From an uncultured Ectothiorhodospiraceae bacterium (GTDB lineage Bacteria; Pseudomonadota; Gammaproteobacteria; S012-40), in contig CALZJE010000044.1 in NCBI GenBank assembly GCA_945787715.1, positions 1 through 32,505 on the forward strand: a stretch of DNA of 32,505 bases, given 5' to 3'. Within the stretch, counting starts at the first letter, position 1, and every line of letters begins with the position of its first letter. This document shows, in pieces, positions 15,502 through 32,349 of this stretch. A program made the translations under genes and the position numbers. The notes under the pieces were generated by a model. It was not told where the DNA came from and ran no database searches. It worked only from the letters and a program-made list of their open reading frames with translations.

Positions 15502-17475
15502 CTACCTTTGTATCTGCCCACGTATCTCTCCGCCGCGGTTCTCCACTGTGTGCACATTGATATAGGCGTTGTCGTTGCGTATCTCGTCAATCAACACTGC
15601 CAGTGGCATTCCCGTTAATGGTCCAACTAGATCATCTGCCATGGCCACGCCTCTGACCCGAAAACGCTTCTCATTCAAGGGTTCAGCAACAAAAGGTCCA
15701 CCTGTGAGAAAGCCCGCTGTGTTGGGTACGATACTGAGTGCGATGGGACCATTCTCACCTAATGGGGCAAGATGGATATGCACACCAATCACGTTTTCTA
15801 TCTTTTTCATATCCACAGAGAACTTTAGTTTGGTACCATCATGGTTAAGCTTGAAAAACGCGTTTCCATACGCTGGTGTGTCGACCGGAATAGTCTGCTC
15901 TGCTCCGCTGAGTCGGGTATAAAACTTCATCGAAAGATTTGGATTAAGGGGCGAGATTTTCATAACTACTCCAGTCTCTCCGCTAGGTACGCCTGTCGTG
16001 TTGGCAAGAACATAGAGCTCTCCACGCGCATCCTGTCCGAAACCCAATAGTGACATGCCCAGCCCATCTTGCCCGGTAATCATAAACTCGGTGATTTCAC
16101 TGGTTTTGACTCGGTTGTGCTTATGGTGATAGTTTTTGTAATGGTGATTTTTACCGCGATAGTTTTTGTAATGGTGGTTCTTACCATGATGGTTTTTGTG
16201 ATGACGTTTCTTGAACTGATTGTTTTTGACGAGATCCTTCTTATTAAGGAAGAACAGTCGGCCGTTGTTGCCACCAAAATTGCGTGAAAAATCCCCGAAG
16301 ACATAGTGTCCTCTGAGTTTTGGAAGCATGCTACCCCGATAGACGAAACCTCCGACAACCGCGATGCCTTCATCATGATCGTATTCAGCCACTGGATCAA
16401 TCAGCATACCCGGTTCGTTCGGACAAGGATCATCGTCAGTAACAAAACCGCGTTCAGCTCCGTTCGGGTCGAAGCAGAACGAGCCCTCCTTGACTGGCCA
16501 ACCATAGTTGCCACCAGCCATTACTATATGCACCTCTTCGATGTCATTCTGACCGACATCGGCGGCATACATGGCTCCAGAGGCAGTGTCAAAAGAGACA
16601 CGAAAGGGATTTCGAAATCCCCAGGCAAAGATTTCGTCACACACTCCATCGGCACAGCCAACTTCTCCACCAAAAGGTTCTACGCCATCTGGGAAGAATG
16701 GATTGTACTTCGGCACACCGTATTGCCCATTTGCTGAGTTTGAACCATGGGGATCGATGCGTAATATGTTGCCGAGGATATTGCTGCGATCCTGGCCATT
16801 ACCCTGTGCGCTATGTCCTGCACCCTGATCATCCCCTGCACCACCATCACCCACAGCGATATATAACAGGCCGTCAGGACCGAAGTTAAGCGCTCCGGCA
16901 TTGTGGTTGAACTGGGGCTCACCAATACTCATCAGAACGCGGCGGCTGGTAGGATCCACCACAGAATCGGTATTGCCAGGTTCGGGAACTTGCCACTCAG
17001 ATATCACCGTATGGTGATTTGCAGGTGCTCCTAGTGGCACCAAGAAATCAGGCGTGCCACTCACGGGTTCCGAAGTGTAAGTATATAGCAGACCATTACT
17101 CTGATAGTTGGGATGAAACGCCAGGCCGATGAAACCTCGCTCATCAAATGTGCCTGGGCCGCCGACTCCGAGGGCAACAAGCAACCCACTCAGGTCAGCA
17201 AAGACTTCTTTGTCACCGGTAAACAGGTTTACCGCCCATAAAACTCCAATCTGATCGACTACGAACAGTCGCCGCGCATCTCCTGGCGCGAAAGTCCCCC
17301 AATTGGGAGCTGTCATCCCATCCGCGACAGGCTCTAGCCGGATGATCGGCCCGCCCTTGGTAATAGGCTTTACCAGGGGATCTTCGAGCTCGACCCCCAT
17401 TATAGGTGTGGCTAGCAATATGAAAGCAGCCAGTAATGCAAGTGCACCTGAGTTGATTAAAGATTTACTTATCAT
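15502..17475 (-). CDS. Secreted glucose/sorbosone dehydrogenase-like protein with His-rich linker and CHRD domain
   Basis: A 657-residue exported protein with signal peptide MISKSLINSGALALLAAFIL... at residues 1 to about 28. Residues about 35-410 form a PQQ-dependent sugar-dehydrogenase-like six-bladed propeller: RGFIGLAFHPNY, FNHNAGALNFGPDGLLYIAV, DRSNILGNILRIDP, EIFAWGFRNPFRVSFD, GGNYGWP. A Lys/His/Asn-rich linker follows at about 417-456 (HHKNHHGKNHHYKNYRGK...). The C-terminus, from about residue 490, is a CHRD domain (GVHIHLAPLGENGP, INVHTVENRGGEIRGQI). The ATG at 17475 has GGAGGAG seven bases upstream; the longer frame to 17535 does not. GC content is visibly higher than in the flanks (30 G/C of 60 at 16741-16800 against 21 of 60 at 18541-18600), suggesting transfer. 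Enzymatic activity and PQQ use are unproven. No PQQ synthesis genes are in the window. Confidence 0.85.
   Translation of the reverse strand: MISKSLINSGALALLAAFILLATPIMGVELEDPLVKPITKGGPIIRLEPVADGMTAPNWGTFAPGDARRLFVVDQIGVLWAVNLFTGDKEVFADLSGLLVALGVGGPGTFDERGFIGLAFHPNYQSNGLLYTYTSEPVSGTPDFLVPLGAPANHHTVISEWQVPEPGNTDSVVDPTSRRVLMSIGEPQFNHNAGALNFGPDGLLYIAVGDGGAGDDQGAGHSAQGNGQDRSNILGNILRIDPHGSNSANGQYGVPKYNPFFPDGVEPFGGEVGCADGVCDEIFAWGFRNPFRVSFDTASGAMYAADVGQNDIEEVHIVMAGGNYGWPVKEGSFCFDPNGAERGFVTDDDPCPNEPGMLIDPVAEYDHDEGIAVVGGFVYRGSMLPKLRGHYVFGDFSRNFGGNNGRLFFLNKKDLVKNNQFKKRHHKNHHGKNHHYKNYRGKNHHYKNYHHKHNRVKTSEITEFMITGQDGLGMSLLGFGQDARGELYVLANTTGVPSGETGVVMKISPLNPNLSMKFYTRLSGAEQTIPVDTPAYGNAFFKLNHDGTKLKFSVDMKKIENVIGVHIHLAPLGENGPIALSIVPNTAGFLTGGPFVAEPLNEKRFRVRGVAMADDLVGPLTGMPLAVLIDEIRNDNAYINVHTVENRGGEIRGQIQR
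16128..16206 (-). repeat. 30-bp in-frame tandem repeat encoding the His-rich linker
   Basis: Units of 30 bases at 16128-16157 and 16158-16187 and a partial unit at 16188-16206, each containing GATAGTTTTTGTAATGGTG or a close variant. They encode ten-residue Lys-Asn-His-His-Tyr type repeats. Unit length is a multiple of three, so copy number can change without a frameshift. This is an internal coding repeat with no spacers, not CRISPR. Confidence 0.85.
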
Positions 17476-18246
17476 AATATTTCTCCTCCACTTATATATT
17501 GCATCGCTATACGTATACCAAAAACTGCGAAGCAATTTGAGTTGTTTCCTGATGCTTATTGGGCATCAACAGTTATAGGGAAAATAAATGGTTTTTTTAT
17601 ATGGAAATAAGACGATACGTTTCCATGAAATCAAGTGTAGACCAAGGCAATCGGCTTATCCAATAAGGAGAAAAAGTAAATTAAAGAAATAATTCTAAGT
17701 TAAAAAACGGGGAGACTTCAGGACTTGATGAAATCCGCACATAACGAAATAAGTCATTAAGTACTGTAGTTAACATGCTGACTAGAAATTTATTACAAAG
17801 CAATATTTTTTATGCAGCTAAATATCATTCAGGAATGTATAAAGATGTACTCCGAAAAATCAATGCTTGTTTCCAATAATTACTCGAAGTCATAATTAAT
17901 TATAATCGTGTTATTGTATTTCATAATTGAATTTTACTATATTAATTAAATTAACATTTCGTGTCTGCGAGTAATGGACTTTCACCGTCTATTGCAGTTA
18001 TCTTCTGCATTGGTTTTTTGTGCTTTACGACTTAAACAGGGCGTAATATTGAGTAGAAAAAATCATTGAGTACAGCTGTGTTAAATGCAATCAAACGAAT
18101 AGGATGTGATGTAAAAGTGATTACGGTTGAAGTCGTAGATATGAATTCTGAAAGTTATGCGAAAGCAACTTTTTAATTTGATAGTGCCCATTCCTCCTCC
18201 CCCCTCTTTTTTGTTTATTAAAGGGGGAGGAAGTTGAGTTGTTAGA
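17476..18246. other. Intergenic region, AT-rich, with a possible XRE-type antitoxin remnant
   Basis: No intact gene is visible. The only stretch that looks formerly coding is 18066-18176 (plus), TTG to TAA, reading LSTAVLNAIKRIGCDVKVIT and onward. It resembles the L-x2-L-x2-LG-x-DV-x-I ending of small XRE/HTH proteins such as HigA-type antitoxins. A preceding frame (..RLKQGVILSRKNH) ends at a stop one frame away at 18067-18069. If real, it is a frameshifted remnant. The rest is AT-rich with no clear structure apart from the hairpin at 18193-18232. Confidence 0.3.
18193..18232 (-). terminator. Hairpin downstream of the polytopic membrane protein gene
   Basis: TCCTCCCCC (18195-18203) pairs with GGGGGAGGA (18223-18231) around an AT-rich loop of 19 bases. 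It lies about 15 bases past the stop of the gene at 18247-19581. No U-run follows on the minus strand, so factor-independent termination is uncertain. Confidence 0.45.
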
Positions 18247-19581
18247 TTATTCCCAATCTGAGAACTTGGTTCGCATAGTATTTAAACGCAACTTTAGTTT
18301 CCCGCCTTGAGATTCAATGGTCGATGCAACAACGATTGCGATCACGCCAAGAACCGCCAGACTCATCCAGCTACCTAGATCAAAATGCAGAACCAATTCG
18401 TAGAGTTGTTGAGCGATTCCTATTGTCATTAATAAGATTCCGCCGGTGAATACATTGCGTTGTTGGTTTTTGTAACCGAATACTATTAAAACCATGCCAA
18501 CAAAAACACAGGTTAATGCTGCAAGTAAATTTAAAAAAATGATTAAACTAGTTGTCATGCCAATTAATAGACCGATGACAGCGATTAAACGATATCTATC
18601 CGGTCTTTTAGTTGATCGAATTGATATGTCATATAACATTGCTGCAGATATTAACGAACTGATAGGAAGAATGAATTCATCGGGGATAAAAACAATACTC
18701 TCTAAGACGCTGTAGAATAAAAAGGTTACTGATGCGGCAGGTATGATCGAGAAACCTTCCAGTATGATTCTTAATTTTGAATCGGCGATTAATTGAAGCG
18801 ATATTTGTCGCATGATAAAAAATATGGTTGCTGACATAATTGTTAATAAAAATAAGTCAGCGGAATAAAGCCAGAGGCTTCGTCCCACTAATACCGCCAA
18901 AGGGAGAAATTGTAAACCAAGCGCTAGCATGCCCTCATTTGTCTTTGAGGAAGTTTGATTGAAAGAAATTTTTCGACTTAGAATGATTGCGCAGGTCGCC
19001 AGTGTTAACACTAATAAACCAATGATCTGTGGATCACGGATGGGTATTAACAGTGCTGCACTACTCAACAAAAACAATAACGATAATTTTTTAGACATAC
19101 GCCGCGCAAGCACGGTAAAACCAAGAAAAGTTACTGGTATTAATATCAATAGTGCCCCTGCAGTGGTTAATAGCGCAGTATTCATACTATCAACTGTCCA
19201 GGCAACATATTGCGGGTAGAGGCCAATATCAAGCTGCATTGTTTGAGAAAAAAGAAACGCGCCAAGTATGGCAAAATTTGCGGGGATAGAAACCAGCGCC
19301 AGAGTGAGTAATAGTCTCGCCCCTTTGCTTTCTTTTAACCAGTGTCCACTCCCTAAGCCAATAACCGCCAATAAGCCAGTGTGGCCCAACATCAACAGAT
19401 AACGAAAACTATCATTCCCGCTTTCCCAGCCTTTCATGAGAAAACTGTACATGGCAATTAATACCGCAGCAGCACCCAGTATGCGTAGCAAGGTGGGCAG
19501 TTGTTTTATTAGATTGAATTCATTTTTGATGACTTCTTGTTGATCGTTTTCTTCGATCCAGGGATCAGTTTGATGTTTCAT
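18247..19581 (-). CDS. Polytopic membrane protein, about 14 transmembrane segments, partner of PspA-like protein
   Basis: A 444-residue, very hydrophobic protein with a short charged N-terminus (MKHQTDPWIEENDQQEVIKN) and about fourteen hydrophobic segments, beginning LLRILGAAAVLIAMYSFLM and ending MSLAVLGVIAIVVASTI. The C-terminal tail is basic and probably cytoplasmic. I recognise no transporter motif or catalytic residues; it is probably of an uncharacterised family. Its ATG overlaps the stop of the PspA-like gene by four bases, so the two are co-translated and likely act together. It may be an inner-membrane anchor or sensor for the PspA-like protein (inference). Confidence 0.8.
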   Translation of the reverse strand: MKHQTDPWIEENDQQEVIKNEFNLIKQLPTLLRILGAAAVLIAMYSFLMKGWESGNDSFRYLLMLGHTGLLAVIGLGSGHWLKESKGARLLLTLALVSIPANFAILGAFLFSQTMQLDIGLYPQYVAWTVDSMNTALLTTAGALLILIPVTFLGFTVLARRMSKKLSLLFLLSSAALLIPIRDPQIIGLLVLTLATCAIILSRKISFNQTSSKTNEGMLALGLQFLPLAVLVGRSLWLYSADLFLLTIMSATIFFIMRQISLQLIADSKLRIILEGFSIIPAASVTFLFYSVLESIVFIPDEFILPISSLISAAMLYDISIRSTKRPDRYRLIAVIGLLIGMTTSLIIFLNLLAALTCVFVGMVLIVFGYKNQQRNVFTGGILLMTIGIAQQLYELVLHFDLGSWMSLAVLGVIAIVVASTIESQGGKLKLRLNTMRTKFSDWE

Positions 19582-20228
19582 TTTTGTTCCTCCTCAGCCA
19601 ATATCTCTGCCAGTTCTTTTTGTAGTTCCTCTTGTTGTTCCTGGGCAATAAAATCGCGTTCCATAACGTCGCTATTATCGCAACTATCAGTAGTTATTTC
19701 TGCTTGACTGATACTAATTTCCCAGCGATTAAAAGATTCGTCCAATAGGGTTTCAGAACTACTGTTTACTTCGTTAGTTGCATCAAGCGCACAACTCGTT
19801 GATTGGCGTGCTCGCATAAGTGTGAGTTTTTGCTTCATCCCTGCCAGGCGTTGTTCACTGGTTTCAATATCACAGGCAAGCTTGTCGGCAGTCTGTACAT
19901 ATTGCGCTAGGGCTTTTTCCAGGTTGTTAATTTTCAGATGGCATTGGCGACTGCGGCTTACACATTCCAACGCTTTGGCTTCGTCTGTTTTTGCGCACTC
20001 AATGGCTCGTTTTCGCCACAGTACAGTGTTTTCTTTTTGCGCTTGAATCTGCTGCTTTAGCTGTTGTTCTTCACTACGCACTTGCCCTAAACGCAGCTTG
20101 GCTTCTGCAACTTTTTTACGCATGTCATTCAATGTGGCTTGAATAACAGCATCGTGGTTTTCAATTTCGCCAACGACTTGATCAAGTCGAGATACCAGGG
20201 TGGCGGATAGGCGTTTAAAAATTGACAT
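19578..20228 (-). CDS. PspA/IM30-family protein
   Basis: A 216-residue protein, almost entirely alpha-helical coiled coil. The N-terminus MSIFKRLSATLVSRLDQVVGEIENHDAVIQATLNDMRKKVAEAK matches the PspA/IM30 (ESCRT-III-like) pattern of an amphipathic start followed by long heptad-rich helices. The C-terminal third is acidic and the last residues are nearly all Glu/Gln/Lys/Leu. PspA proteins bind stressed inner membranes and reduce proton leakage. A strong ribosome-binding site (GGAGGT) precedes the ATG. The classical partners pspF, pspB and pspC are absent; instead it is coupled to a polytopic membrane protein and faces an HTH regulator. It is therefore a variant Psp-like system, not the enterobacterial one. 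Confidence 0.75.
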   Translation of the reverse strand: MSIFKRLSATLVSRLDQVVGEIENHDAVIQATLNDMRKKVAEAKLRLGQVRSEEQQLKQQIQAQKENTVLWRKRAIECAKTDEAKALECVSRSRQCHLKINNLEKALAQYVQTADKLACDIETSEQRLAGMKQKLTLMRARQSTSCALDATNEVNSSSETLLDESFNRWEISISQAEITTDSCDNSDVMERDFIAQEQQEELQKELAEILAEEEQK

Positions 20229-20323: not shown

Positions 20324-20344
20324 TAGTATAGAAAAGATATACTA
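20324..20344. promoter_or_regulatory. Palindromic operator candidate, site 1
   Basis: TAGTATA-N7-TATACTA is a perfect 7-bp-arm dyad in the divergent gap between the PspA-like gene and the HTH gene, 25 bases before the HTH start. Its core GTATA-N7-TATAC (20326-20342) recurs at 21116-21132 upstream of aas. It overlaps a possible -10 box (TAGTAT, with TTGTAT 16 bases upstream). An extra GTATAC lies at 20304-20309. Confidence 0.6.
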
Positions 20345-20369
20345 TTTGTCATAAAAAGCAGGAAAAGCG

Positions 20370-21101
20370 ATGGCGCAAACGGCAGAACTGGTAAAAACTT
20401 TGAAAGCAGCTTTAAAAAGCAACAACCTGACTTATGCGGAAGTAGCGCGAAGACTAGATATGAGTGAGGCTAATGTGAAACGCTTATTTGTATCGAAACG
20501 ATTTACTCTGCAACGTTTAGAAGATATCTGTCGGCTGATGCAGATGGAGTTAACAGATCTCTTTCAACTTTATCAGGAGTCTCGCCAACGTATTAGTCAA
20601 TTGACGCTGGAGCAGGAGAAAGAGTTGGTGAAGGATGAAAAGTTGTTGCTGGTTGCGGTGAGTGTGCGCAATCATCTCACCTTCAATGACATCATTAATA
20701 ATTATCTGCTCTCTGAAACCGAATGTATCCGTTGCCTGGCAAAACTGGACAAGTTGATGATTATCGATCTTTTACCGAATAACCGAATCAAGCTGCGTAT
20801 TGATGAAGATTTTCGCTGGATAGAAAATGGACCGATTGAAGACTTCTTTGAAAAGAAGATCCAGAAACATTTTCTAAAATCAGGTTTCAGGGGAGAGCTG
20901 GAACATCGTCGATTTTTATTTGGATTATTAGGTGATTCTTCAACTCGGCTGCTGCTCAATAAAATGCAAAATTTGACCAAGGAGTTTGCTGACCTGCATC
21001 GTCAGGATGCTCATTTGCCGCTGGATAAACGGCATAGCATTGGATTCATGATGGCGATGCGTCCCTGGGAGCTGGAAGTTTTTAAGCCATTAATCCGATA
21101 A
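20370..21101 (+). CDS. HTH (XRE/Cro-CI type) transcriptional regulator
   Basis: A 243-residue protein with an N-terminal HTH at residues about 8-55: LKSNNLTYAEVARRLDMSEANVKRLFVSKRFTLQRLEDICRLM. The following 180 residues are an uncharacterised helical domain containing winged-helix-like text (LTFNDIINNYLLSETECIRCLAKLDKLMIIDLL). It may sense a signal or oligomerise. AGGA precedes the ATG. The gene diverges from the PspA-like operon and is followed by aas-lplT. Matching dyads lie before it and before aas, so it is the natural candidate to bind them. Whether it activates or represses cannot be seen. Confidence 0.82.
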   Translation: MAQTAELVKTLKAALKSNNLTYAEVARRLDMSEANVKRLFVSKRFTLQRLEDICRLMQMELTDLFQLYQESRQRISQLTLEQEKELVKDEKLLLVAVSVRNHLTFNDIINNYLLSETECIRCLAKLDKLMIIDLLPNNRIKLRIDEDFRWIENGPIEDFFEKKIQKHFLKSGFRGELEHRRFLFGLLGDSSTRLLLNKMQNLTKEFADLHRQDAHLPLDKRHSIGFMMAMRPWELEVFKPLIR

Positions 21102-21115
21102 AAGTGAGGCAAAAA

Positions 21116-21132
21116 GTATATTAAAAATATAC
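21116..21132. promoter_or_regulatory. Palindromic operator candidate, site 2, upstream of aas
   Basis: GTATA-TTAAAAA-TATAC has the same half-sites and the same 7-base A-rich spacer as site 1 (GTATA-GAAAAGA-TATAC). It lies 105 bases before the aas start and 14 bases after the HTH gene stop. No T-run follows, so it is not a typical terminator. A further half-site GTATATTAA occurs at about 21206, closer to aas. Confidence 0.55.
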
Positions 21133-21237
21133 CGAATATCCATCTAAGTAATACTTCTTGAATATAGGTTTATTTATTCGCTTCTTTCTATGATCATTAC
21201 TGCAAGTATATTAATGGTTAATCAAGAGGAAATAAGC

Positions 21238-23379
21238 ATGTTAAAAATAATCATTCGATGGGTATTAAGCAAACTCTATAGTGTCGAAGTAAATGGTGCT
21301 GAGCATCTCGATCAATTCAGTGAGCGAATATTAGTTGTCGCTAATCACACATCGTTTATTGATGCCGTTCTGCTTTATGCTTATTTGCCTGTCACGGCAA
21401 CGTTTGCCATTAATACTTATGTTGCGCGTAGCTGGATTGGTCGATTGGCTGGTTTACTAGGGAGTTTGTTTCCGATTGATCCCAGCAATCCACTCTCTAT
21501 CCGTTCGCTTATTCGTCGTCTTGACCAGGGTGGTTGCGTGGTGATTTTTCCTGAAGGGCGTATTACCGTTACGGGTTCTTTAATGAAAGTTTATCCCGGC
21601 CCTGGGCTTGTGGCAGCGCGAGCTAAAGCAACTGTATTGCCTATTCGCATTGATGGCGCACAATACACACCTTTTTCACGTCTTCGTGGTCGTGTGCGTT
21701 TAAGCTGGTTTCCTAAAATTACGCTTAACGTACAAGCGCCACGTTGTTTGTATATTGCAGATCAATACAAAGGACGCAAGCGTCGTGAGCAGGCGGGGAA
21801 ATTATTATCAGATATTATGACAGAGATGATGTACGAAACTGCAAATAAAGATCAAACATTAGCAGAACGTTTAATGGAAGCTCGTCGCATACATGGTGGT
21901 TCTCACATTATTGCTGAAGACATTAATCGTAAACCGATGACTTATAATAAACTGCTTGCCAGTTCAGTCGTGCTTGGTAAGCAGCTGGTAAAACATAGCA
22001 ATTTTGATGAAACAATTGGTGTTTTACTACCGGGTACGTTGGCAACTGTCACCACATTTTGGGGTTTGCAGTTAGCTGGAAAAGTACCAGCCATGCTTAA
22101 CTATACAGCTGGCCCACAAGGAATGGTTGCTGCCAGTGAAACGGCTCAATTAAATTACGTTGTTACTTCACGACGTTTTATTCAGCTGGCGAAACTGGAA
22201 CAAGCCGAGATTGCGCTTTCTGAAAAAGTCGAACTGATCTATCTGGAAGACATAGCTGAGAATATTAGTTGGCTTGATAAATTAGCGGGTTTGGTAATTA
22301 GCCGTTTTGATGGATGGTTGAAACGCCTTGCTTCTCGTGATGCAAAACAAAAAGCAGTTATTCTATTTACTTCCGGATCGGAGGGTACGCCTAAAGGGGT
22401 GGTGTTATCGCACCAGAACTTAATGGCAAATGTTCAACAACTGAGTTCACGTATTGATTTTAATGCACAGGATATTGCATTAAACGCATTACCTTTATTT
22501 CACTCCTTTGGCTTAAGTGCAGGGATGATTTTGCCAGTTACCTCTGGTGTCCGCGTATTTTTCTATCCTTCACCTTTGCATTACCGAGTTGTTCCAGAAG
22601 TGGCTTATGAAATTAATGCGACTCTTTTATTCGGTACGAATACTTTTCTTGCAGGTTATGCGCGTTTTGCGGATGCGTATGATTTCTACAGTCTTCGTTA
22701 CGTTTTTGCAGGAGCAGAAAGATTGCAGGATGAAGTACGCCGCACGTGGCAAGACAAATTCGGCGTTCGTATTTTTGAAGGCTACGGTGCGACTGAAACC
22801 AGTCCTGTTATTGCAGGGAATACACCACTAGCAAGCCGGCCTGGTACAGTTGGTCGTTTGATGCCCGGTATGGAACATCGTTTAGTGAAGGTTACGGGGT
22901 TGGAAGAAGGGCAACGATTGCTGGTGCGTGGTCCTAATGTGATGCAAGGTTACTTGTTACATGATAATCCTGGTGTACTTGTGCCACCGGTTAGTGAAGC
23001 AGGGAATGGATGGTACGACACTGGTGATATCGTTACGATTGATGAAGAAGGATTTATTCGGATCTGCGGACGTGCAAAACGCTTTGCAAAAATTGCTGGA
23101 GAAATGGTGTCACTCAGCTCGGTTGAGATGTTAGCCAGTAAAGTTTGGCCAGATGCGCTACATGCTGCGGTAAGCATTCCTGATGAACGCAAAGGTGAAC
23201 TGATTGTATTGCTTACGACGGTTGAAAGCGCAGATCGAACGTCTTTGATAACACAAGCGAAAAGCGATGGCGTTGCAGAAATTGGTGTGCCCCGTAAATT
23301 AGTGCATGTATCGAATATACCTGTACTAGGTACAGGAAAAATTGACTATGTTTCTGCAACTAAAATGTTGGCAGCTTAA
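21238..23379 (+). CDS. aas: Bifunctional lysophospholipid acyltransferase / acyl-ACP synthetase
   Basis: A 713-residue inner-membrane enzyme (E. coli Aas about 719). The N-terminal PlsC-like acyltransferase has the HX4D motif (His37 to Asp42 in NHTSFID) and FPEGRIT. The C-terminal half is an AMP-forming ligase: LFTSGSEGTPKGVVLSH at about 374-390, GYGATETSPV at about 515, YDTGDIVTIDEEGFIRICGR from about 593, and the catalytic lysine in LGTGKIDY near 700. It re-acylates 2-acyl lysophosphatidylethanolamine with fatty acid activated on ACP. ATG 21238 has AAGAGGAAA upstream and gives the normal N-terminus; the frame extends back to 21190 without family support. It is co-transcribed with lplT two bases downstream. 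Confidence 0.93.
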   Translation: MLKIIIRWVLSKLYSVEVNGAEHLDQFSERILVVANHTSFIDAVLLYAYLPVTATFAINTYVARSWIGRLAGLLGSLFPIDPSNPLSIRSLIRRLDQGGCVVIFPEGRITVTGSLMKVYPGPGLVAARAKATVLPIRIDGAQYTPFSRLRGRVRLSWFPKITLNVQAPRCLYIADQYKGRKRREQAGKLLSDIMTEMMYETANKDQTLAERLMEARRIHGGSHIIAEDINRKPMTYNKLLASSVVLGKQLVKHSNFDETIGVLLPGTLATVTTFWGLQLAGKVPAMLNYTAGPQGMVAASETAQLNYVVTSRRFIQLAKLEQAEIALSEKVELIYLEDIAENISWLDKLAGLVISRFDGWLKRLASRDAKQKAVILFTSGSEGTPKGVVLSHQNLMANVQQLSSRIDFNAQDIALNALPLFHSFGLSAGMILPVTSGVRVFFYPSPLHYRVVPEVAYEINATLLFGTNTFLAGYARFADAYDFYSLRYVFAGAERLQDEVRRTWQDKFGVRIFEGYGATETSPVIAGNTPLASRPGTVGRLMPGMEHRLVKVTGLEEGQRLLVRGPNVMQGYLLHDNPGVLVPPVSEAGNGWYDTGDIVTIDEEGFIRICGRAKRFAKIAGEMVSLSSVEMLASKVWPDALHAAVSIPDERKGELIVLLTTVESADRTSLITQAKSDGVAEIGVPRKLVHVSNIPVLGTGKIDYVSATKMLAA

Positions 23380-23381
23380 AA

Positions 23382-24560
23382 ATGGATAACAAAATCTATC
23401 GAGTATTAGCAACACAGTTTCTCACCGCGTTCGCAGATAATGCTGTGTTGTTTACCGCCATTACCATGGTGATGAAACAATCCGAAACCGGAAACTGGTA
23501 TATTCCAGCCCTTCAAGCAGCGTTCTTGATAGCCTTTGTGGCACTCGCACCCTGGGTAGGACGATTTGCCGATGGGCGACCAAAACCGAAAGTGTTATTC
23601 GGCGCTAATGTCATTAAAGCACTCGGCGCGGTAATGTTGTTTTTTCATGTCGAGCCACTGATTGCCTATGCTGTCATTGGTTTGGGGGCTGCAACGTATA
23701 GTCCGGCTAAATATGGGATTTTACCAGAATTAGTAGACGAAAAATCGTTAGTTAAAGCCAATGGCTGGATAGAAGGTTCGACAATACTCGCAATTCTTGG
23801 TGGCACAGTGATTGGAGCATTCCTGTCTGAATATTCCATCACCGTAGCCCTGCTTGTTGTTATGGCGCTATATGTCTTTTCAGCATTTATTGCACTGACC
23901 ATCAAACATACCCAGGTCATTGGTGTTACGAAAGGTAATGCGCTGCAGAATTTTACACATCAAATGAAAGGATTACTCTCAACACCTCGTGCACGTTTTT
24001 CAACGTTGGGAGTAAGTTTGTTTTGGGCATCAGCGACAGTCTTACGTGTTCTTTTAGTGGCCTGGGTACCAGCCGTTTTATTTATAGATTCTACGGCTGA
24101 CATTGCAATGCTTACCATGTTTGTTGCAATTGGTATAGCGGTTGGTTCTATCTTGGTGCCTCGATTAATTCCCATGGCCTATCTTCGTCGCGCACGATTA
24201 GCAGCGTATGTAATGGGAATCGTAATTGTTTTATTGGCAACCATGGATAATGTCTGGTTAGTTCGTGTAGCTCTGTTTACAGCAGGTGTATGTGGCGGTC
24301 TTTTTGTCGTGCCAATTAATGCAGCATTGCAAGAGATTGGGCATAAAACCATAGGCAGTGGCGGTGCGGTTGCTATCCAAAACTTTTTTGAAAATTTCAC
24401 TATGCTTTTAGCGGCTGGTGTTTATTCTATTGTTGCTGGCATTGGGATTGATCCTGTTATCACCATGATATGGCTTGGTGTGTTGGTGGTAATTGCTACC
24501 ATGATTGTTTCGTGGCATTTGCCTAAAGATACGGGAGAGTTATCTGATGAGATTGCGTGA
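23382..24560 (+). CDS. lplT: Lysophospholipid transporter LplT (MFS)
   Basis: A 392-residue MFS protein (E. coli LplT 397) with about twelve hydrophobic segments. The family start is clear (NKIYRVLATQFLTAFADNAVLFTAI), as are APWVGRFADGRPKPKVL and the conserved TYSPAKYGILPELV loop. LplT flips lysophospholipids inward across the inner membrane to feed Aas. The gene starts two bases after the aas stop codon. In some bacteria the two are fused in one polypeptide, which confirms the functional link. Confidence 0.94.
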   Translation: MDNKIYRVLATQFLTAFADNAVLFTAITMVMKQSETGNWYIPALQAAFLIAFVALAPWVGRFADGRPKPKVLFGANVIKALGAVMLFFHVEPLIAYAVIGLGAATYSPAKYGILPELVDEKSLVKANGWIEGSTILAILGGTVIGAFLSEYSITVALLVVMALYVFSAFIALTIKHTQVIGVTKGNALQNFTHQMKGLLSTPRARFSTLGVSLFWASATVLRVLLVAWVPAVLFIDSTADIAMLTMFVAIGIAVGSILVPRLIPMAYLRRARLAAYVMGIVIVLLATMDNVWLVRVALFTAGVCGGLFVVPINAALQEIGHKTIGSGGAVAIQNFFENFTMLLAAGVYSIVAGIGIDPVITMIWLGVLVVIATMIVSWHLPKDTGELSDEIA

Positions 24561-25300
24561 AGTCTTAAGATTTTAACGATGAGTGCAACTTCCTTTTCTA
24601 AGTAAGGAAACGTTTTATCCCAAACATTTTTACGCATGACATGTATGAATATTTCTATTTCACTAACATGACGCACTTTAAGTTCCTTAAACTGCGTTAT
24701 CTTTTCACTTGATCTTGTTGGTTTTCCGAAACAATTGATTGAAGCTGAGTTTATCGATAGACTTGATAACTGGAATGAGTCTCGCTTTGCTGGTCAGGTT
24801 TTTTGCTGTTCGCTCAAAATGAATTTTAGCTGATTCCCCATGCAAATTATGCAGTAATTTTCGGTTATTCTTTTTCATGAAAATGGTGACTTATCGATTG
24901 CGGCTAAATATTGATTAACTGATTGATGAGCCTATCCTTTTCAAATCATTGTTGCTTTCTCATTTTGTCCTTATTAGGCATCACTCTGAAAATTATTTGC
25001 AATATCAAATTACGTTAATGCTGAGTACTCCTCCGGTATAAATTTACACAGCAAAAAAATGTCCGGTCCAGGCTAATTTCAGTAAAACTTAATACTAGAT
25101 TAATTGGAGCAAAAGATAATATTTAATACATTGAATACACTTTGGTAAAAAAACTAAGATAATCAGACTGTTGGGAAATAACTTTAATACAAGTGAAGAT
25201 ACGGATAGTGTGATTTATTCAAAAACAAATAATCCTAGATACAAAGTGGATTTTCAGAAAAATATCTCTGTTAGTGGTTACTAAACTGTGGGTGAAGAAT
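24561..25300. other. Intergenic region with possible gene remnants
   Basis: No intact gene is visible in these 740 bases. A weak stem TTCCTT/AAGGAA (24590-24609) followed by TTTT may terminate aas-lplT. The 31 bases after the lplT stop match 28612-28642 inside the WD40 lipoprotein gene at 26 positions. At 25171-25284 (plus, TTG to TAA) a 37-codon frame (NNFNTSEDTDSVIYSKTNNP...) looks protein-like in composition but resembles no family I know. No promoter for the lipoprotein gene was identified with confidence. Confidence 0.3.
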
Positions 25301-28300
25301 ATGAGTTGCCATGTAAGAAATATAGGTAAGATATTGAATTATAACAATAATTCATTCGTTTGTTTCCCACTTGTGGTCTTGTTTGGTGTGTTACTTGTGA
25401 GTTGTGGAAAAGCACAGCAGGTGGAAGTATGGGGCAGTTCTACTAAAATGAAGGTGCCAACTGAAGAGCAGTTGGCGTTTTCTGTTGATAATGTTCCCAT
25501 ATCACTTTATCAAATGAAGGGTAAGGTAAATAAATCACTATCGAAAACAGTTAAACTCTCGAAAAATTCTCTGAATAGGCAAAAAATCAGACCAGCAGAA
25601 ATTAATGTCACCAATGATGGTGATAATCCGGAATTTAATTTTAGATTTAATCCATTTGGGGCAAACAACACAATAAATAGTCTCGACTCTGATAGTGACT
25701 GTGCGGTACCTCAAGTTGATGGAGAATTGAACAGGCTTCATGATTACGGTCTTGGTTCGTTTTGTTTGGTTGCTGTGGCAAAAATGGCAATGATGCGTGC
25801 ACTATCAAATTACAGCAGTTTTGGTCATATCATGCCATTTATTGCATCAGGATTAGCAGACGCAAACAATCCTAAAGGTGCAATATCAAATTATTCGAAC
25901 TCTGTTGAAACTTATGGTGCAAAGGGACTTAAGATTGAAGTCTTTTACGATGATTGCTCTAATCATCGCCCCGCCAGCTTATCCCCAGATAGTAAAGCAC
26001 TCACGATGTGCACCAGTAAGTCCGACACAGCTGTCTATCATCGGGTCAGGATTCTTGTTGATGGGGAGAATAATGGCTCCACTGCGGGTAGTTCGATAGG
26101 AATAATGGAATGGCTTGTTTATTTGGATGGTTCCACAACTGGGGAGATGATTATCGACCGATTTTTAATGACAGATTTACCCGATGTTCGTTTTGCCCCG
26201 CCCCAAATCCAGTTTGATTTTGAATCAGATGCCAATGCAAATTTTAAATCTTTTACCATGAAGTTTGAGCCACACCCAGTAACCCAATTTGATAGTGTAA
26301 GTCGTCAATGGCGTTGGGAAGCAAATGTAATTAAGTTGACGCGAAGGCCCGCTATAGGTAACGATCCTGCACTTTGGTTTGCGCAAGGAAATATTCTCTT
26401 TTCCATTTCCTCGGGTCACAATCCTTTAGATTCCAATTTCTTTACTGCCTCTGATCCGCATCTGCATCAAGAGTTTTTACGTGTTTATTTTACCGCAGTT
26501 TCTGAAAATACGTTAAACGAGGGTAAAGCCGTTTATAAAGCGATTATGACAGATGAAACCGGTACAGAACTAGCGTCATTTACTGAACCCCAGTGGGAAA
26601 GAGAACTCCACATGTGGGCATATTACAAAAAATTGCTTAAACGCACATGGACCCAATCTCATTACGAACTTCGTCATAACGCTGATAACAAACCATTAAT
26701 GAATCTGGTTAGCACTGCTCTACCTTTAACGGCAGAAGAACAGGCAGAACTGCAAGCATATTATGCGGAACATGCTCATGAACAGGCAATACTTGACGTT
26801 GCATTCAATAGCGCCGATAACAAGTTTGTGACCGGTACCGGTCACTTTCAGTATATTCCGGGAGGTACCATTCGTGTATTTGATGAAGCGCGTCGGATAA
26901 AAATACAACAAATTGACGATGCACATAGCGGTAAAGAAGTCAACAAAGTGAGTTTTCATCCTACCGACGATGATCTTATCCTTTCCGGCGGTGGCGATAA
27001 TTTTGCGCGTATTTATAGAGTCAGTACTGGAGTAGAAGTAATGCCGCTTATAAATGCTTTGAATCCTGTTTGGTCAGCTGATGGAACACGTATTGCCTCC
27101 GTTAGTTATGATGGAAGTAAAATATGGGATGCTGTTACAGGTGAGGTACTCTCTTCTTTTGATGATTCTGAGTATAGGAATAGCATTAAATTTGATCCTA
27201 GCAATAATAATTTTTTAATCACAGGCGGCCAAGGTGGCAGTAGAATTTGGGATATTAACGCACTGAGTACGCCTACCGAATATAATGATCCAGATGGCGC
27301 CACTGTATATGATGTAGCTTTTTCTGAGGATGGAAATTTCTTTGCAACGACAACTTCTGAACATCATGTGCATTTATGGGATCGCAGCAATACCTCAGCG
27401 CCGATCAGGTCAGCGATTACCTATAATCAAAGTACACCAAAAATAGGATCAAAGCTAAAATTCTCAGCTGATGGTAAAAATATTTTTGTCCTCGTGGGTA
27501 ACAGTATTTTAAATTTTAATACAGCAACTCTTGGATCACCACTACCAGAAGGATTACCAGTAGAAACCTGGATGGCTAAGATTAGCGCTTCTGAGCAACG
27601 TTCCATAGAGTCATACGCCCTTAGATCTGATGATATTACGGCATCAATTGGTGTTGATTTCAAATTGTATGGCAGTGGAAGTACACGCGTTTGGCATGAT
27701 ATTAATCTTTTTTCTGGACCAAGTGCAGATTCTTTTTCGATTGATGGTTCAGTAACGGCCCATGAAGCAAATTATTCGCCTGATGGAAAATTTGTTGTCA
27801 GTGCTCATTCAAATGGTGATGTAGTGATATGGGATGCTCCAAAGGGCATAGTATTAGAAAAAATAAATTCAGCACATGCTAGTGCCGCCCTCAGTGCCAG
27901 ATATAATCCGAATGGAACAAAATTTGTAACCGCGAGTGCTGATGGCACAGCAAAAGTCTGGGATGCGACAACGGCTGCATTATTGTCAACGGTTTCTCAT
28001 CTTGGTAATCCTCCGCTCTCAGCAGCTTCTTTTTTAGATGACGCAACGATAGTTACTGCTGCAAGTGATGGCAGTGTTATGAGCTGGGATGCAACCTCGG
28101 GTGCGGAATTATCGACGTTTGATACACAAAGCGTAAGTAGTGCCAATGATATTTACTTTCTGCCAACTGATAGCACTCGGTTTGTTGTAGCCACTAGTGC
28201 GGGAACCCAATTGTGGTCAACAGGCAATCCCACTGCACCATTGTGTACCTTAGGTAGCTCTTCGAATAATAGCGCGCGTATATCGCCTGATGGCCTACGT

Positions 28301-28996
28301 GTCATCACCACTACTAGTTCTAACGCTCACCTCTATAGCATTGACAGTTCTGTCGTTGAAACATATTGTATTGAACGGGGTTTTGTCACTGATAATCGAC
28401 TTCAGCATGCCATATTTTCACCACACGATGGTGGTAAACATGTGATTACGCAAAATTCTGGCAGCGGGAGTAGTGATTATTCTGAATTTTATTTGTGGGA
28501 TATGGATCCAGACTCCCTCGACTTTGAAACGAAACTTAAAGTCATGAGGGAACCCTGTGATTGTCAAAATCAAGAAAGAAGACCAATGTCGAATATCGCA
28601 TACCAGCCGGATGGTCTCAAGGTTTTAACGATGGGCGCAAGTTCTAATTTTAATCCTGCTTGGATTGCCTTTGATGACTGGTTTACTAAAACAGATAACA
28701 GCGGAAAAGCGCTACGTCCTGATGAAGACAATGATCTAAATCCATATTATGTCGATGTTTCAACAACAAATGATGGGTGTTTTACATCAAGCGAGTTTGG
28801 GGGTTGTGGTGAAGGGTCAGGGTATCTAAGTTGCGCAGATGTTGGTGGTTGTGAAGTACATAACGTTGTCTCTCAGTTTGAATTTTATAAGAATGATACA
28901 ACACCCGGTCCAGAATATGATTACTTAAAATCACAATTAGATTTAGTATCGCCAGCTTGGATAATAGATTCCTACTCATCAAAAATTATCGACTAA
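25301..28996 (+). CDS. Large WD40-repeat lipoprotein with uncharacterised N-terminal domain
   Basis: A 1231-residue protein. The N-terminus ends in a lipobox LVSC with Cys35 (VVLFGVLLVSC-GK), so it is probably lipid-anchored in the envelope. Residues about 110-450 contain Cys residues and no recognised domain (CAVPQVDGELNRLHDYGLGS, RWRWEANVIKLTRRP-like text). From about 490 to 1070 there are many WD40-like blades: FHPTDDDLILSGGGDNFARI, SADGTRIASVSYDGSKIWDA, SPDGKFVVSAHSNGDVVIWD, YNPNGTKFVTASADGTAKVWD, probably two propellers. The last 150 residues are Cys-rich (CDC, GCFTSSEFGGCG, SCADVGGC). The ATG at 25301 is preferred over an upstream GTG at 25274 because it gives a normal lipoprotein signal. 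Function is unknown; protein-protein scaffolding is the generic inference for WD40. Confidence 0.82.
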   Translation: MSCHVRNIGKILNYNNNSFVCFPLVVLFGVLLVSCGKAQQVEVWGSSTKMKVPTEEQLAFSVDNVPISLYQMKGKVNKSLSKTVKLSKNSLNRQKIRPAEINVTNDGDNPEFNFRFNPFGANNTINSLDSDSDCAVPQVDGELNRLHDYGLGSFCLVAVAKMAMMRALSNYSSFGHIMPFIASGLADANNPKGAISNYSNSVETYGAKGLKIEVFYDDCSNHRPASLSPDSKALTMCTSKSDTAVYHRVRILVDGENNGSTAGSSIGIMEWLVYLDGSTTGEMIIDRFLMTDLPDVRFAPPQIQFDFESDANANFKSFTMKFEPHPVTQFDSVSRQWRWEANVIKLTRRPAIGNDPALWFAQGNILFSISSGHNPLDSNFFTASDPHLHQEFLRVYFTAVSENTLNEGKAVYKAIMTDETGTELASFTEPQWERELHMWAYYKKLLKRTWTQSHYELRHNADNKPLMNLVSTALPLTAEEQAELQAYYAEHAHEQAILDVAFNSADNKFVTGTGHFQYIPGGTIRVFDEARRIKIQQIDDAHSGKEVNKVSFHPTDDDLILSGGGDNFARIYRVSTGVEVMPLINALNPVWSADGTRIASVSYDGSKIWDAVTGEVLSSFDDSEYRNSIKFDPSNNNFLITGGQGGSRIWDINALSTPTEYNDPDGATVYDVAFSEDGNFFATTTSEHHVHLWDRSNTSAPIRSAITYNQSTPKIGSKLKFSADGKNIFVLVGNSILNFNTATLGSPLPEGLPVETWMAKISASEQRSIESYALRSDDITASIGVDFKLYGSGSTRVWHDINLFSGPSADSFSIDGSVTAHEANYSPDGKFVVSAHSNGDVVIWDAPKGIVLEKINSAHASAALSARYNPNGTKFVTASADGTAKVWDATTAALLSTVSHLGNPPLSAASFLDDATIVTAASDGSVMSWDATSGAELSTFDTQSVSSANDIYFLPTDSTRFVVATSAGTQLWSTGNPTAPLCTLGSSSNNSARISPDGLRVITTTSSNAHLYSIDSSVVETYCIERGFVTDNRLQHAIFSPHDGGKHVITQNSGSGSSDYSEFYLWDMDPDSLDFETKLKVMREPCDCQNQERRPMSNIAYQPDGLKVLTMGASSNFNPAWIAFDDWFTKTDNSGKALRPDEDNDLNPYYVDVSTTNDGCFTSSEFGGCGEGSGYLSCADVGGCEVHNVVSQFEFYKNDTTPGPEYDYLKSQLDLVSPAWIIDSYSSKIID

Positions 28997-30290: not shown

Positions 30291-31265
30291 TTAAAAAGAA
30301 TGGCTAATACCAATCATGATAATTTTTTGTTCATTGGTATTACGTAATCCGATTTCAGCTGTTGATATCTCTTCATTGGCTGAAAATTTTTGGGTTTGAA
30401 TACCATTAGCCACTGTTTTTAAATAAACTACTGAAGCAAAAACACTAGTTGATTTCTGTAACAAATAATTCAGGGAAGCATTAAGTGTTGTTCCCCAGCC
30501 ATCGGAGTTGCCGGTAGATATTTTTTTTCGCAAAATATGATTATCATGATCGGTGACTTTTAGCCACGGTGAATATGCTATTGCGAATGTTATTGCTATT
30601 TTTGGATTGAAATTACGAGTTAACATGACAGAAGCAAAAGGCATTCTTGCTTCATATCGATAGGTGATGGTTTTACCTGTGAGTATATCTGCAGGTTTTT
30701 CTGGTGTGGATGGGTAGCTTTGTACGGTGTCGAAGGCTTTAAACTGGTAGCGTTGGAATAATATCCCTCCCCCAATAAAAACATTCCAATAGGAGAGAAG
30801 TTCAGTCGTTAATTTTTTCTGCAATTCTAATTTTAAATCTACAGCGTCGAGAGTTAGTCGACTTTCGGAATATATATCGAGCGAGTCTCGAGGAAAAGCT
30901 TCGCGATTTAGGAAGTAATAATTGATTCCCCAGTCACTATCCTTCATTTCACCAGAGTTTAATGTGATATTTTTTGATGCAGAAGCTGAAGCTAACCAGT
31001 TATTGTTAAATAAGTGGCTAAGTTGAAAATTTATAATGGATGTATTCGTTGCAAAGCGTAATTCACTAAGAGGGAAGCGTAATCGGCCTGTTTCGCCGGA
31101 ATCCAGCGTTATTTGCCCACCGATCTGGAAAGTTATTTCACCTTGTCTTTTGCCATATGCGGCTTCTATCTCTAAGGCAAGTACTGACGAAGATAGCAAT
31201 AAGTTAAGCAATATTATGAAGAAAACAAATTGGACAGAATAGGTATTATTATTTTTATCTTCCAT
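30291..31265 (-). CDS. Omptin-like outer-membrane aspartyl protease
   Basis: A 324-residue barrel protein with a signal peptide (VQFVFFIILLNLLLSSSVLA, cleavage near residue 30-31) and a C-terminal Phe (IMIGISHSF). It aligns by eye with OmpT/Pla. KDSDWG gives Asp109 and Asp111, matching the DQDW pair (Asp83/Asp85 of OmpT). YSPWLKVTDHDNH gives Asp241 and His243, matching SGWVESSDNDEH (Asp210/His212). The spacing between pairs is 130 residues against 125. FIGGGILFQRYQFKA and YEARMPFASVMLTRNF match the strands GLMAGYQESRYSFTA and KQRFKMPYIGLTGSY. Omptins cleave surface and host proteins and need rough LPS. All four residues are kept, so activity is plausible. A Pom-type chlamydial barrel relative is the main alternative. 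Confidence 0.75.
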   Translation of the reverse strand: MEDKNNNTYSVQFVFFIILLNLLLSSSVLALEIEAAYGKRQGEITFQIGGQITLDSGETGRLRFPLSELRFATNTSIINFQLSHLFNNNWLASASASKNITLNSGEMKDSDWGINYYFLNREAFPRDSLDIYSESRLTLDAVDLKLELQKKLTTELLSYWNVFIGGGILFQRYQFKAFDTVQSYPSTPEKPADILTGKTITYRYEARMPFASVMLTRNFNPKIAITFAIAYSPWLKVTDHDNHILRKKISTGNSDGWGTTLNASLNYLLQKSTSVFASVVYLKTVANGIQTQKFSANEEISTAEIGLRNTNEQKIIMIGISHSF

Positions 31266-32349
31266 TTTCTTAAAACCAAATGTAAGTATAAGAAGTATAA
31301 ACTATCTTTATCTAAGAATTCAAAAATGTTCTTTCGTTGGTAGGGGTAGGCTTGATTAAAAAAGGGTTGAAGTGTGGTGAGTTTTGTCTCATGTATTAGT
31401 TATCAGTCTGAGGCTGCATTTTCAAGACCATTCAAGAAAATGTTTGATACGTCACCTGGGAAGTTGAGGCGTGTCGCAGGCAGTTGAAGATATTTATAAT
31501 AAAGAGATCAATATATGATCTACAGTGAAGATGTTAATTTTATCATATTAAAATTGTCATACTGTTGAGATCTTCTTTATACGATATTTATCTATGTGCG
31601 TTAATTTTTGTGCGTGCTCCAATTTCACTAGATTGTTCGGTTTATTCGATTCGAAAAATAGTTTCAACAACCGAAGTAACATCGGCTAACTTTAACTCAT
31701 TGCCATCGAGATCTCGTGTAGGATTATTTTCATCCATTTTCAGCTCATTATGATAATAGATTGATAAATAAGTTTGCTCTATTAAAAAGTTCGGTGTCAG
31801 TCATCTGTGAAATATAAGATTTTTTGGGGTGCATCTTCCATCAAACTATTAATTAACCATTTTCGATCTGAGTTTGGAGGTATAAGTCAGTCGATATATG
31901 CGCTCAATCAAGACATGAGTAAATTTGATGGTTGTGTCGATATTGCTTCCACTACTTCAATGAGCGAGTATCACGCGATAGCTGCAATTTATTTAGATTG
32001 CTGTGCAGGATCTCTTGACGGTTAATTATTATATTGTCGGAATATTTTACAGGACTATCCGCCCTAATATTTTAAATGATAAATAATTTATCAATATATA
32101 ACACATTAGACGTCTGCCCCTACATTGCTACCAATACATCTATGACAGAGCATTACAAGATCTCTTCCAATTATTTCATTGCTATGTAGGGCATCTTATC
32201 TGTGGATTATTATACTGTCGAAATATTTTACAGAAATATATCCATATCCATTTGGTTGACAAATAACTTACTGATATATAAGATAAATTAATATGGCTTA
32301 CAATTTGCTTACAGCTCAGTGTTGCTCCAGCTGTCACGGCTCTCGGGGA
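31266..32349. other. Long gene-poor, AT-rich region with decayed frames
   Basis: No intact gene is visible in 1.1 kb. The longest frames are 31565-31753 (62 aa, TTG start) and 31807-32025 (72 aa, GTG start); neither has a ribosome-binding site or recognised family. The end of the second frame (DIASTTSMSEYHAIAAIYLD) is repeated in degraded form 180 bases further on (YIATNTSMTEHYKISSNYFI then stop). The stretch therefore looks like the debris of a duplicated coding segment. Confidence 0.4.
31938..32289. repeat. Two diverged direct repeats, period about 180 bp
   Basis: Copy 1 (about 31938-32110) and copy 2 (about 32113-32289) align along most of their length with small gaps. The best core is ATTATATTGTCGGAATATTT (from 32028) against ATTATACTGTCGAAATATTT (from 32209), both followed by TACAG. 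The offset there is 181 bases. The end of each copy shares a CTGATATATAA / TCAATATATAA type ending. Confidence 0.6.

Follow-up and report, generated by a model that had tools for sequence, protein, structure and literature searches.

A predicted XRE-type repressor with a conserved 17-bp operator probably links PspA-type membrane protection to LplT/Aas lysophospholipid repair

We propose that in an uncultured Ectothiorhodospiraceae bacterium one small repressor, with XRE and winged-helix parts, probably co-controls PspA-type membrane protection and LplT/Aas phospholipid repair. The proposal comes from analysis of a 32,505-nucleotide stretch of DNA (the window) and its relatives, in which a dyad-symmetric element, a candidate operator that both operons carry, lies on either side of the regulator gene. 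This arrangement, in which one switch would serve both a PspA-type operon and an operon for phospholipid repair, is found in several related bacteria and is not described in the literature we searched. What appears to be new is an envelope-stress regulon of PspA type that has a regulator class to itself and an arm for lysophospholipid repair.

The pspA-family gene (PspA/IM30; 19578..20228, minus strand) encodes 216 residues matching PF04012 at 44.5 bits (cut-off 33.9), and its product falls far under the E. coli-type equivalog TIGR02977 (34.9 vs 243 bits). Its end is overlapped by the gene for a DUF2157-like membrane protein (18247..19581, minus strand), a point absent from the original prediction; the match of this protein to PF09925 (E 3e-4, 20.9 bits) is under the cut-off of 32.4. 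Divergent from the pair is the regulator gene (20370..21101, plus strand), which encodes a 243-residue protein with an XRE HTH (PF13443, 35.5 bits, cut-off 22). It is followed on the plus strand by aas (21240..23379), encoding acyltransferase and acyl-ACP synthetase domains (PF01553 and PF00501; NF005959 806 bits, cut-off 886), and by lplT (23382..24560), encoding a lysophospholipid transporter (NF008397 380.8 bits, cut-off 297). The aas ORF opens at 21190, and the ATG at 21240 is its likely start, since it has a ribosome-binding site and homologues begin there. Elsewhere in the window, 25274-28996 encodes a 1240-residue WD40-repeat protein that may be exported, and 15502-17535 a GSDH-CHRD fusion whose middle carries a repeat rich in His, Lys and Asn.

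A pattern search of the window returned both dyads at exactly the positions originally predicted: GTATAGAAAAGATATAC at 20326-20342, between the divergent pspA-like and regulator genes, and GTATATTAAAAATATAC at 21116-21132, before aas-lplT. The two flank a single HTH gene, and the window contains no further perfect GTATA-N7-TATAC. Dyad 1 is the core of a longer perfect dyad, TAGTATA-N7-TATACTA (20324-20344), referred to here as operator 1. Dyad 2, operator 2, starts 14 bp past the stop codon of the regulator; it does precede aas-lplT, but "directly before aas" overstates the case, as a gap of about 107 bp separates it from the likely ATG. The perfect motif occurs three times in the whole genome (4,396,556 bp), versus five times for a reversed-pattern control. 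With only three copies in 4.4 Mb it is not common genome-wide; a motif common at random sites is what the original prediction had named as speaking against it. These counts also mean that the motif is not over-represented, and what is unusual is its placement: two of the three copies flank one gene, the regulator; for three sites placed at random, the probability that some pair lies no more than 790 bp apart is about 0.001. The third copy (L041:7353-7369), about 30 bp 5' of a ParD-like antitoxin gene, scores 13.9 with the family matrix versus 18.2 and 17.6 for the two window dyads; it looks unrelated to the regulon and is perhaps the antitoxin system's own operator.

Looser matches carry no meaning, given that with up to two mismatches the window has 13 where 14.2 are expected by chance. 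A large regulon in this genome was rejected on the same kind of comparison, both for a one-mismatch search (91 vs 202 control matches) and for a GTMTA-variant search (7 vs 23); the variant matches either score low with the matrix or fall within genes or at gene ends. A gene for an omptin-family outer-membrane protease (30291-31265, minus strand) was considered as a third regulon member and likewise rejected. A one-mismatch site at 31286 (31265-31311) lies about 20 bp 5' of it, with a matrix score of 13.5 (0.09 such sites expected per shuffled window); the site is missing before the orthologue in genome G003 and is therefore probably due to chance.

Regulator homologues were gathered by protein and profile searches, and 74 distinct loci, many of them from metagenome-assembled genomes, were used. 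Dyads were counted in the 150 bp 5' of the start codon in 72 upstream regions. Exact GTAT-N9-ATAC is present in 38 of the 72 regions, where shuffles predict 0.25, and with one mismatch in 57 (7.0 expected); no other spacing between 0 and 20 pairs the same half-sites in more than two regions. As the homologues are related, raw counts overstate the number of independent events, and counts reduced to one locus per identity cluster are fairer: exact sites are found in 16/39 loci at 60% identity (0.14 expected), 11/24 at 50% (0.10 expected) and 6/16 at 45% (0.04 expected). The site orthologous to operator 1 is present in relatives, and the dyad is still present at homologues that share 28-35% identity with the window regulator; about one fifth of the homologues have no recognisable site. 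This conservation rules out a chance origin of the dyads and bears out the expectation that they would recur upstream of orthologues of the HTH gene. It also narrows the motif, since the dyad as predicted is conserved but its conserved core is GTAT-N9-ATAC, the fifth base being A, C or T family-wide. Pooling the sites gives the consensus AAAGTATAAAAATTTTATACTTT, whose core has its outer G and C conserved at 96%, and the extended consensus is AAAGTATA-N7-TATACTTT. The regulator family is found in 52 of 369 sampled genomes of the class (about 1 in 7), including named Pseudoalteromonas and Gilvimarinus strains, and a phylum-wide search extended the family beyond the class, several of the additional homologues having the same site.

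From these comparisons both dyads are very probably the regulator's own binding sites. Because each arm looks like a -10 hexamer and the genes around operator 1 diverge, one could read the dyads as paired divergent -10 hexamers (TATACT on each strand) that are kept for two promoters and are not operators. We find this hardly credible. The outer G and C at 96% and the fixed nine-base spacing are features that sigma-70 does not demand, operator 2 is located between two genes of the same direction, and the dyad is missing from most aas genes that are not linked to the regulator.

The aas upstream regions were scanned with a matrix trained on regulator-upstream sites only, from which the window and its 90%-identical relative had been left out. 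The matrix was run over 260 bp around each aas start, with p values from 400 shuffles. Operator 2 scored 17.1 (p 0.0025). Wherever aas lies downstream of the regulator, in eight loci, the matrix finds a site (p 0.0125 or better, six at the shuffle floor), and the dyad is thus conserved upstream of linked aas orthologues, as anticipated. The sites in two of these loci, G092 and G216, are weak. This would suit a reading in which only the first site is functional, in autoregulation and pspA control, and the aas site exists as a side effect of lying close to the regulator gene. We consider that reading very unlikely, as the site is found in every linked locus and is retained where the linkage has been altered. 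In G003 aas has moved to a different contig, where it follows an unrelated gene and has GCATACTATAAGTATAC about 100 bp upstream (p 0.0075); at the spot behind the regulator that aas has left, the sequence is GTAAATTGAGTTCTATGC, a dyad that has decayed. In G207 aas retains GTCTATGAAAAATATAC though about 1.1 kb, with an intervening gene, parts it from the regulator. Genes for LplT/Aas, mostly fused, are also the divergent partner of the regulator in other families, namely in eight further loci, five with exact and three with one-mismatch sites. The aas gene of G139 has a site as well; it was not counted as an in-trans control because both genes are at contig edges and may be neighbours. The matrix scan found no site at 11 of the 12 remaining unlinked aas genes; the unlinked aas of G087 has a poor match, yet one that passes the shuffle test.

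On the other side of the regulator, pspA-DUF2157 is the divergent neighbor in 11 loci, and all 11 have a site within one mismatch. Regulator homologues repeatedly adjoin pspA-DUF2157, aas/lplT, or both. The DUF2157 protein is encoded in 17 and the regulator in 52 of the 369 genomes sampled from the class, and 12 encode both (Fisher p 7e-8). Two further homologues adjoin other PspA genes, and by our own reading of the sequence what appears to be a YiaAB-like gene lies between the regulator homologue and the PspA gene in one of these two. Against the link, G207 and G137 each have a pspA-DUF2157 pair that is not next to an intact regulator and that has no site. The G207 pair adjoins a broken second regulator copy (L121:3440-4000) with its operator reduced to a half-site; the intact copy is by aas, on a different contig. 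Together these comparisons support the shared-regulator reading, in which pspA and aas-lplT would form one regulon, and they support the dyad as the probable operator carried by both operons.

The genome of the window has a second PspA gene on contig C15 (L188:1070-2187), whose product is a stronger match to the PspA family. It has no good operator (best matrix score 8.2), and it is preceded by a 137-residue gene that may be of DUF2170/YjfI type. The genome has no PF04024 match for PspC and no match to TIGR02974 above cut-off for PspF. The locus is therefore not the pspF/pspBC system, and the claim that it is distinct from it holds.

The regulator has an N-terminal HTH of XRE type (HTH_26) and matched no family in an NCBIfam search. 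The best AlphaFold2 model has a pLDDT of 86 over the whole protein and 88 for residues 78-243; other models were less confident. The model and fold comparison divide the protein into an XRE domain (about residues 1-74), a winged-helix-like middle and a long-helix C-terminus. Residues 1-74 form a canonical XRE domain, with Z-scores of up to 11.8 to C.Esp1396I. Fold searches with the C-terminal part returned winged-helix matches over residues 78-180 with Z-scores of about 8, though these may be generic; the last helices gave no clear match. A sequence search of solved structures with the regulator profile returned marginal XRE matches only.

In the mechanism that we propose, the 243-residue regulator would dimerize via its XRE-type HTH and bind the 17-bp dyad GTAT-N9-ATAC. 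Operator 1 would sit in the region common to the promoters of the regulator and of the divergent pspA-like/DUF2157 operon, and operator 2 in the promoter region of aas-lplT. Without stress, the bound dimer would block all three transcripts. Membrane damage, the signal suggested by the targets, would release the dimer, sensed either by the C-terminal part of the regulator or by the PspA/DUF2157 proteins. PspA would then stabilize the inner membrane, and LplT/Aas would recover and re-acylate lysophospholipids.

The position of the operators bears on the sign of this control. A sigma-70 promoter of pspA, with a -10 hexamer (TATACT) that coincides with the left arm of operator 1, is predicted at 20325..20352 (minus strand; 10/12 consensus matches); on its own the prediction is weak, as shuffles give about three promoter-like sites in that region. 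Across the family most operator centres are 10-60 bp 5' of the start codon, which the operator directly abuts in six loci. Operators that lie near start codons and cover the predicted pspA -10 hexamer favor repression of the regulator's own gene and of its neighbor, and the regulator would thus be an autorepressor. PspF is an activator of the psp genes, and the regulator might in the same way bind the dyads and activate, switching the operons on upon a signal. The precedent of PspF and the use of predicted rather than mapped promoters to judge operator position lend this alternative some weight. We nevertheless think it unlikely, because a protein bound over the predicted pspA -10 hexamer, or against the regulator start codon as in several loci, would block transcription.

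The locus can be compared with several known systems. Like PspF-PspABC of Escherichia coli and Yersinia, it has a PspA-family gene beside, and divergent from, the gene of a DNA-binding regulator. Here, however, the regulator is a 243-residue XRE/winged-helix protein and not a sigma-54 enhancer-binding protein, aas-lplT is joined to the locus, and the genome is without PspC and without PspF above cut-off. In common with ClgR-PspA-PspM-PspN of Actinobacteria, a Cro/XRE-type HTH regulator gene adjoins pspA. The DNA-binding domains of ClgR and the regulator superpose with a Z-score of 10.2, as many XRE domains do, and only this common domain superposes; the regulator has extra winged-helix and helical C-terminal parts and no ClgR family match in NCBIfam. 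The gene order here is also divergent, the partner is a DUF2157-like protein instead of PspM, and the phylum is different. LiaIH-LiaGFSR of Bacillus combines a PspA homologue with a membrane protein of DUF2157/LiaI-LiaF-TM type (grouping from PMC11237479), to which the partner of PspA here may correspond, its Pfam match being below cut-off (20.9 vs 32.4 bits); the regulator here is a one-component protein and there is no two-component system. The aas-lplT genes are the same two, in the same order, as in the E. coli operon, with LplT above its NCBIfam cut-off and an Aas that has both domains, PF01553 and PF00501, and is just under the NF005959 cut-off (806 vs 886 bits). The difference is that here the operon would carry the operator of a dedicated regulator in common with pspA.

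The PspA contexts catalogued by Ravi et al. 2024 (PMC11237479) include control by PspF, ClgR and LiaRS, and the same authors assign DUF2157 to the LiaI-LiaF-TM domain; the words 'acyltransferase' and 'lysophospholipid' are absent from their main text. Popp et al. 2022 (PMC9239133) describe a general tendency of pspA to adjoin HTH genes, and in Pseudomonas aeruginosa LplT/Aas function is part of the defense against phospholipase toxins (PMC8926400). In the literature searched, outside which most subscription papers lie, we found no paper naming lplT and PspA together, nor any regulator dedicated to aas-lplT.

The range of the regulator family extends far past PspA and Aas, which the original prediction did not address, and since most homologues adjoin neither gene, envelope damage is a common signal that we infer. 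The remaining branches adjoin either DUF2145 and YiaAB proteins together with a small exported one, or a VIT-VWA protein; these neighbors, too, would have envelope functions. In loci L018-L029, L031, L080 and L081 (Alteromonadales and relatives) the regulator, with the same operator, is divergent from the small exported protein and DUF2145, often with YiaAB, and these loci are probably a second regulon of the family. A VIT-domain protein is the divergent neighbor in L015, L016, L075, L077 and L078, and is VIT-VWA in L016, the one scanned with Pfam. We give an even chance to the broader view that the family is a widespread, undescribed class of envelope-stress repressors, composed of XRE, winged-helix and helical parts with one conserved 17-bp operator, that directs PspA-DUF2157, LplT/Aas, DUF2145/YiaAB or VIT-VWA according to lineage.

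If this broader view is correct, the family would add a further kind of psp control to those by PspF, ClgR and LiaRS, and would tie PspA directly to lysophospholipid repair at the level of regulation. One conserved operator tying both operons to one small protein would make this a defined regulon with a concrete sequence. It suggests that these cells may treat the loss of membrane integrity and the build-up of lysophospholipids as one problem.
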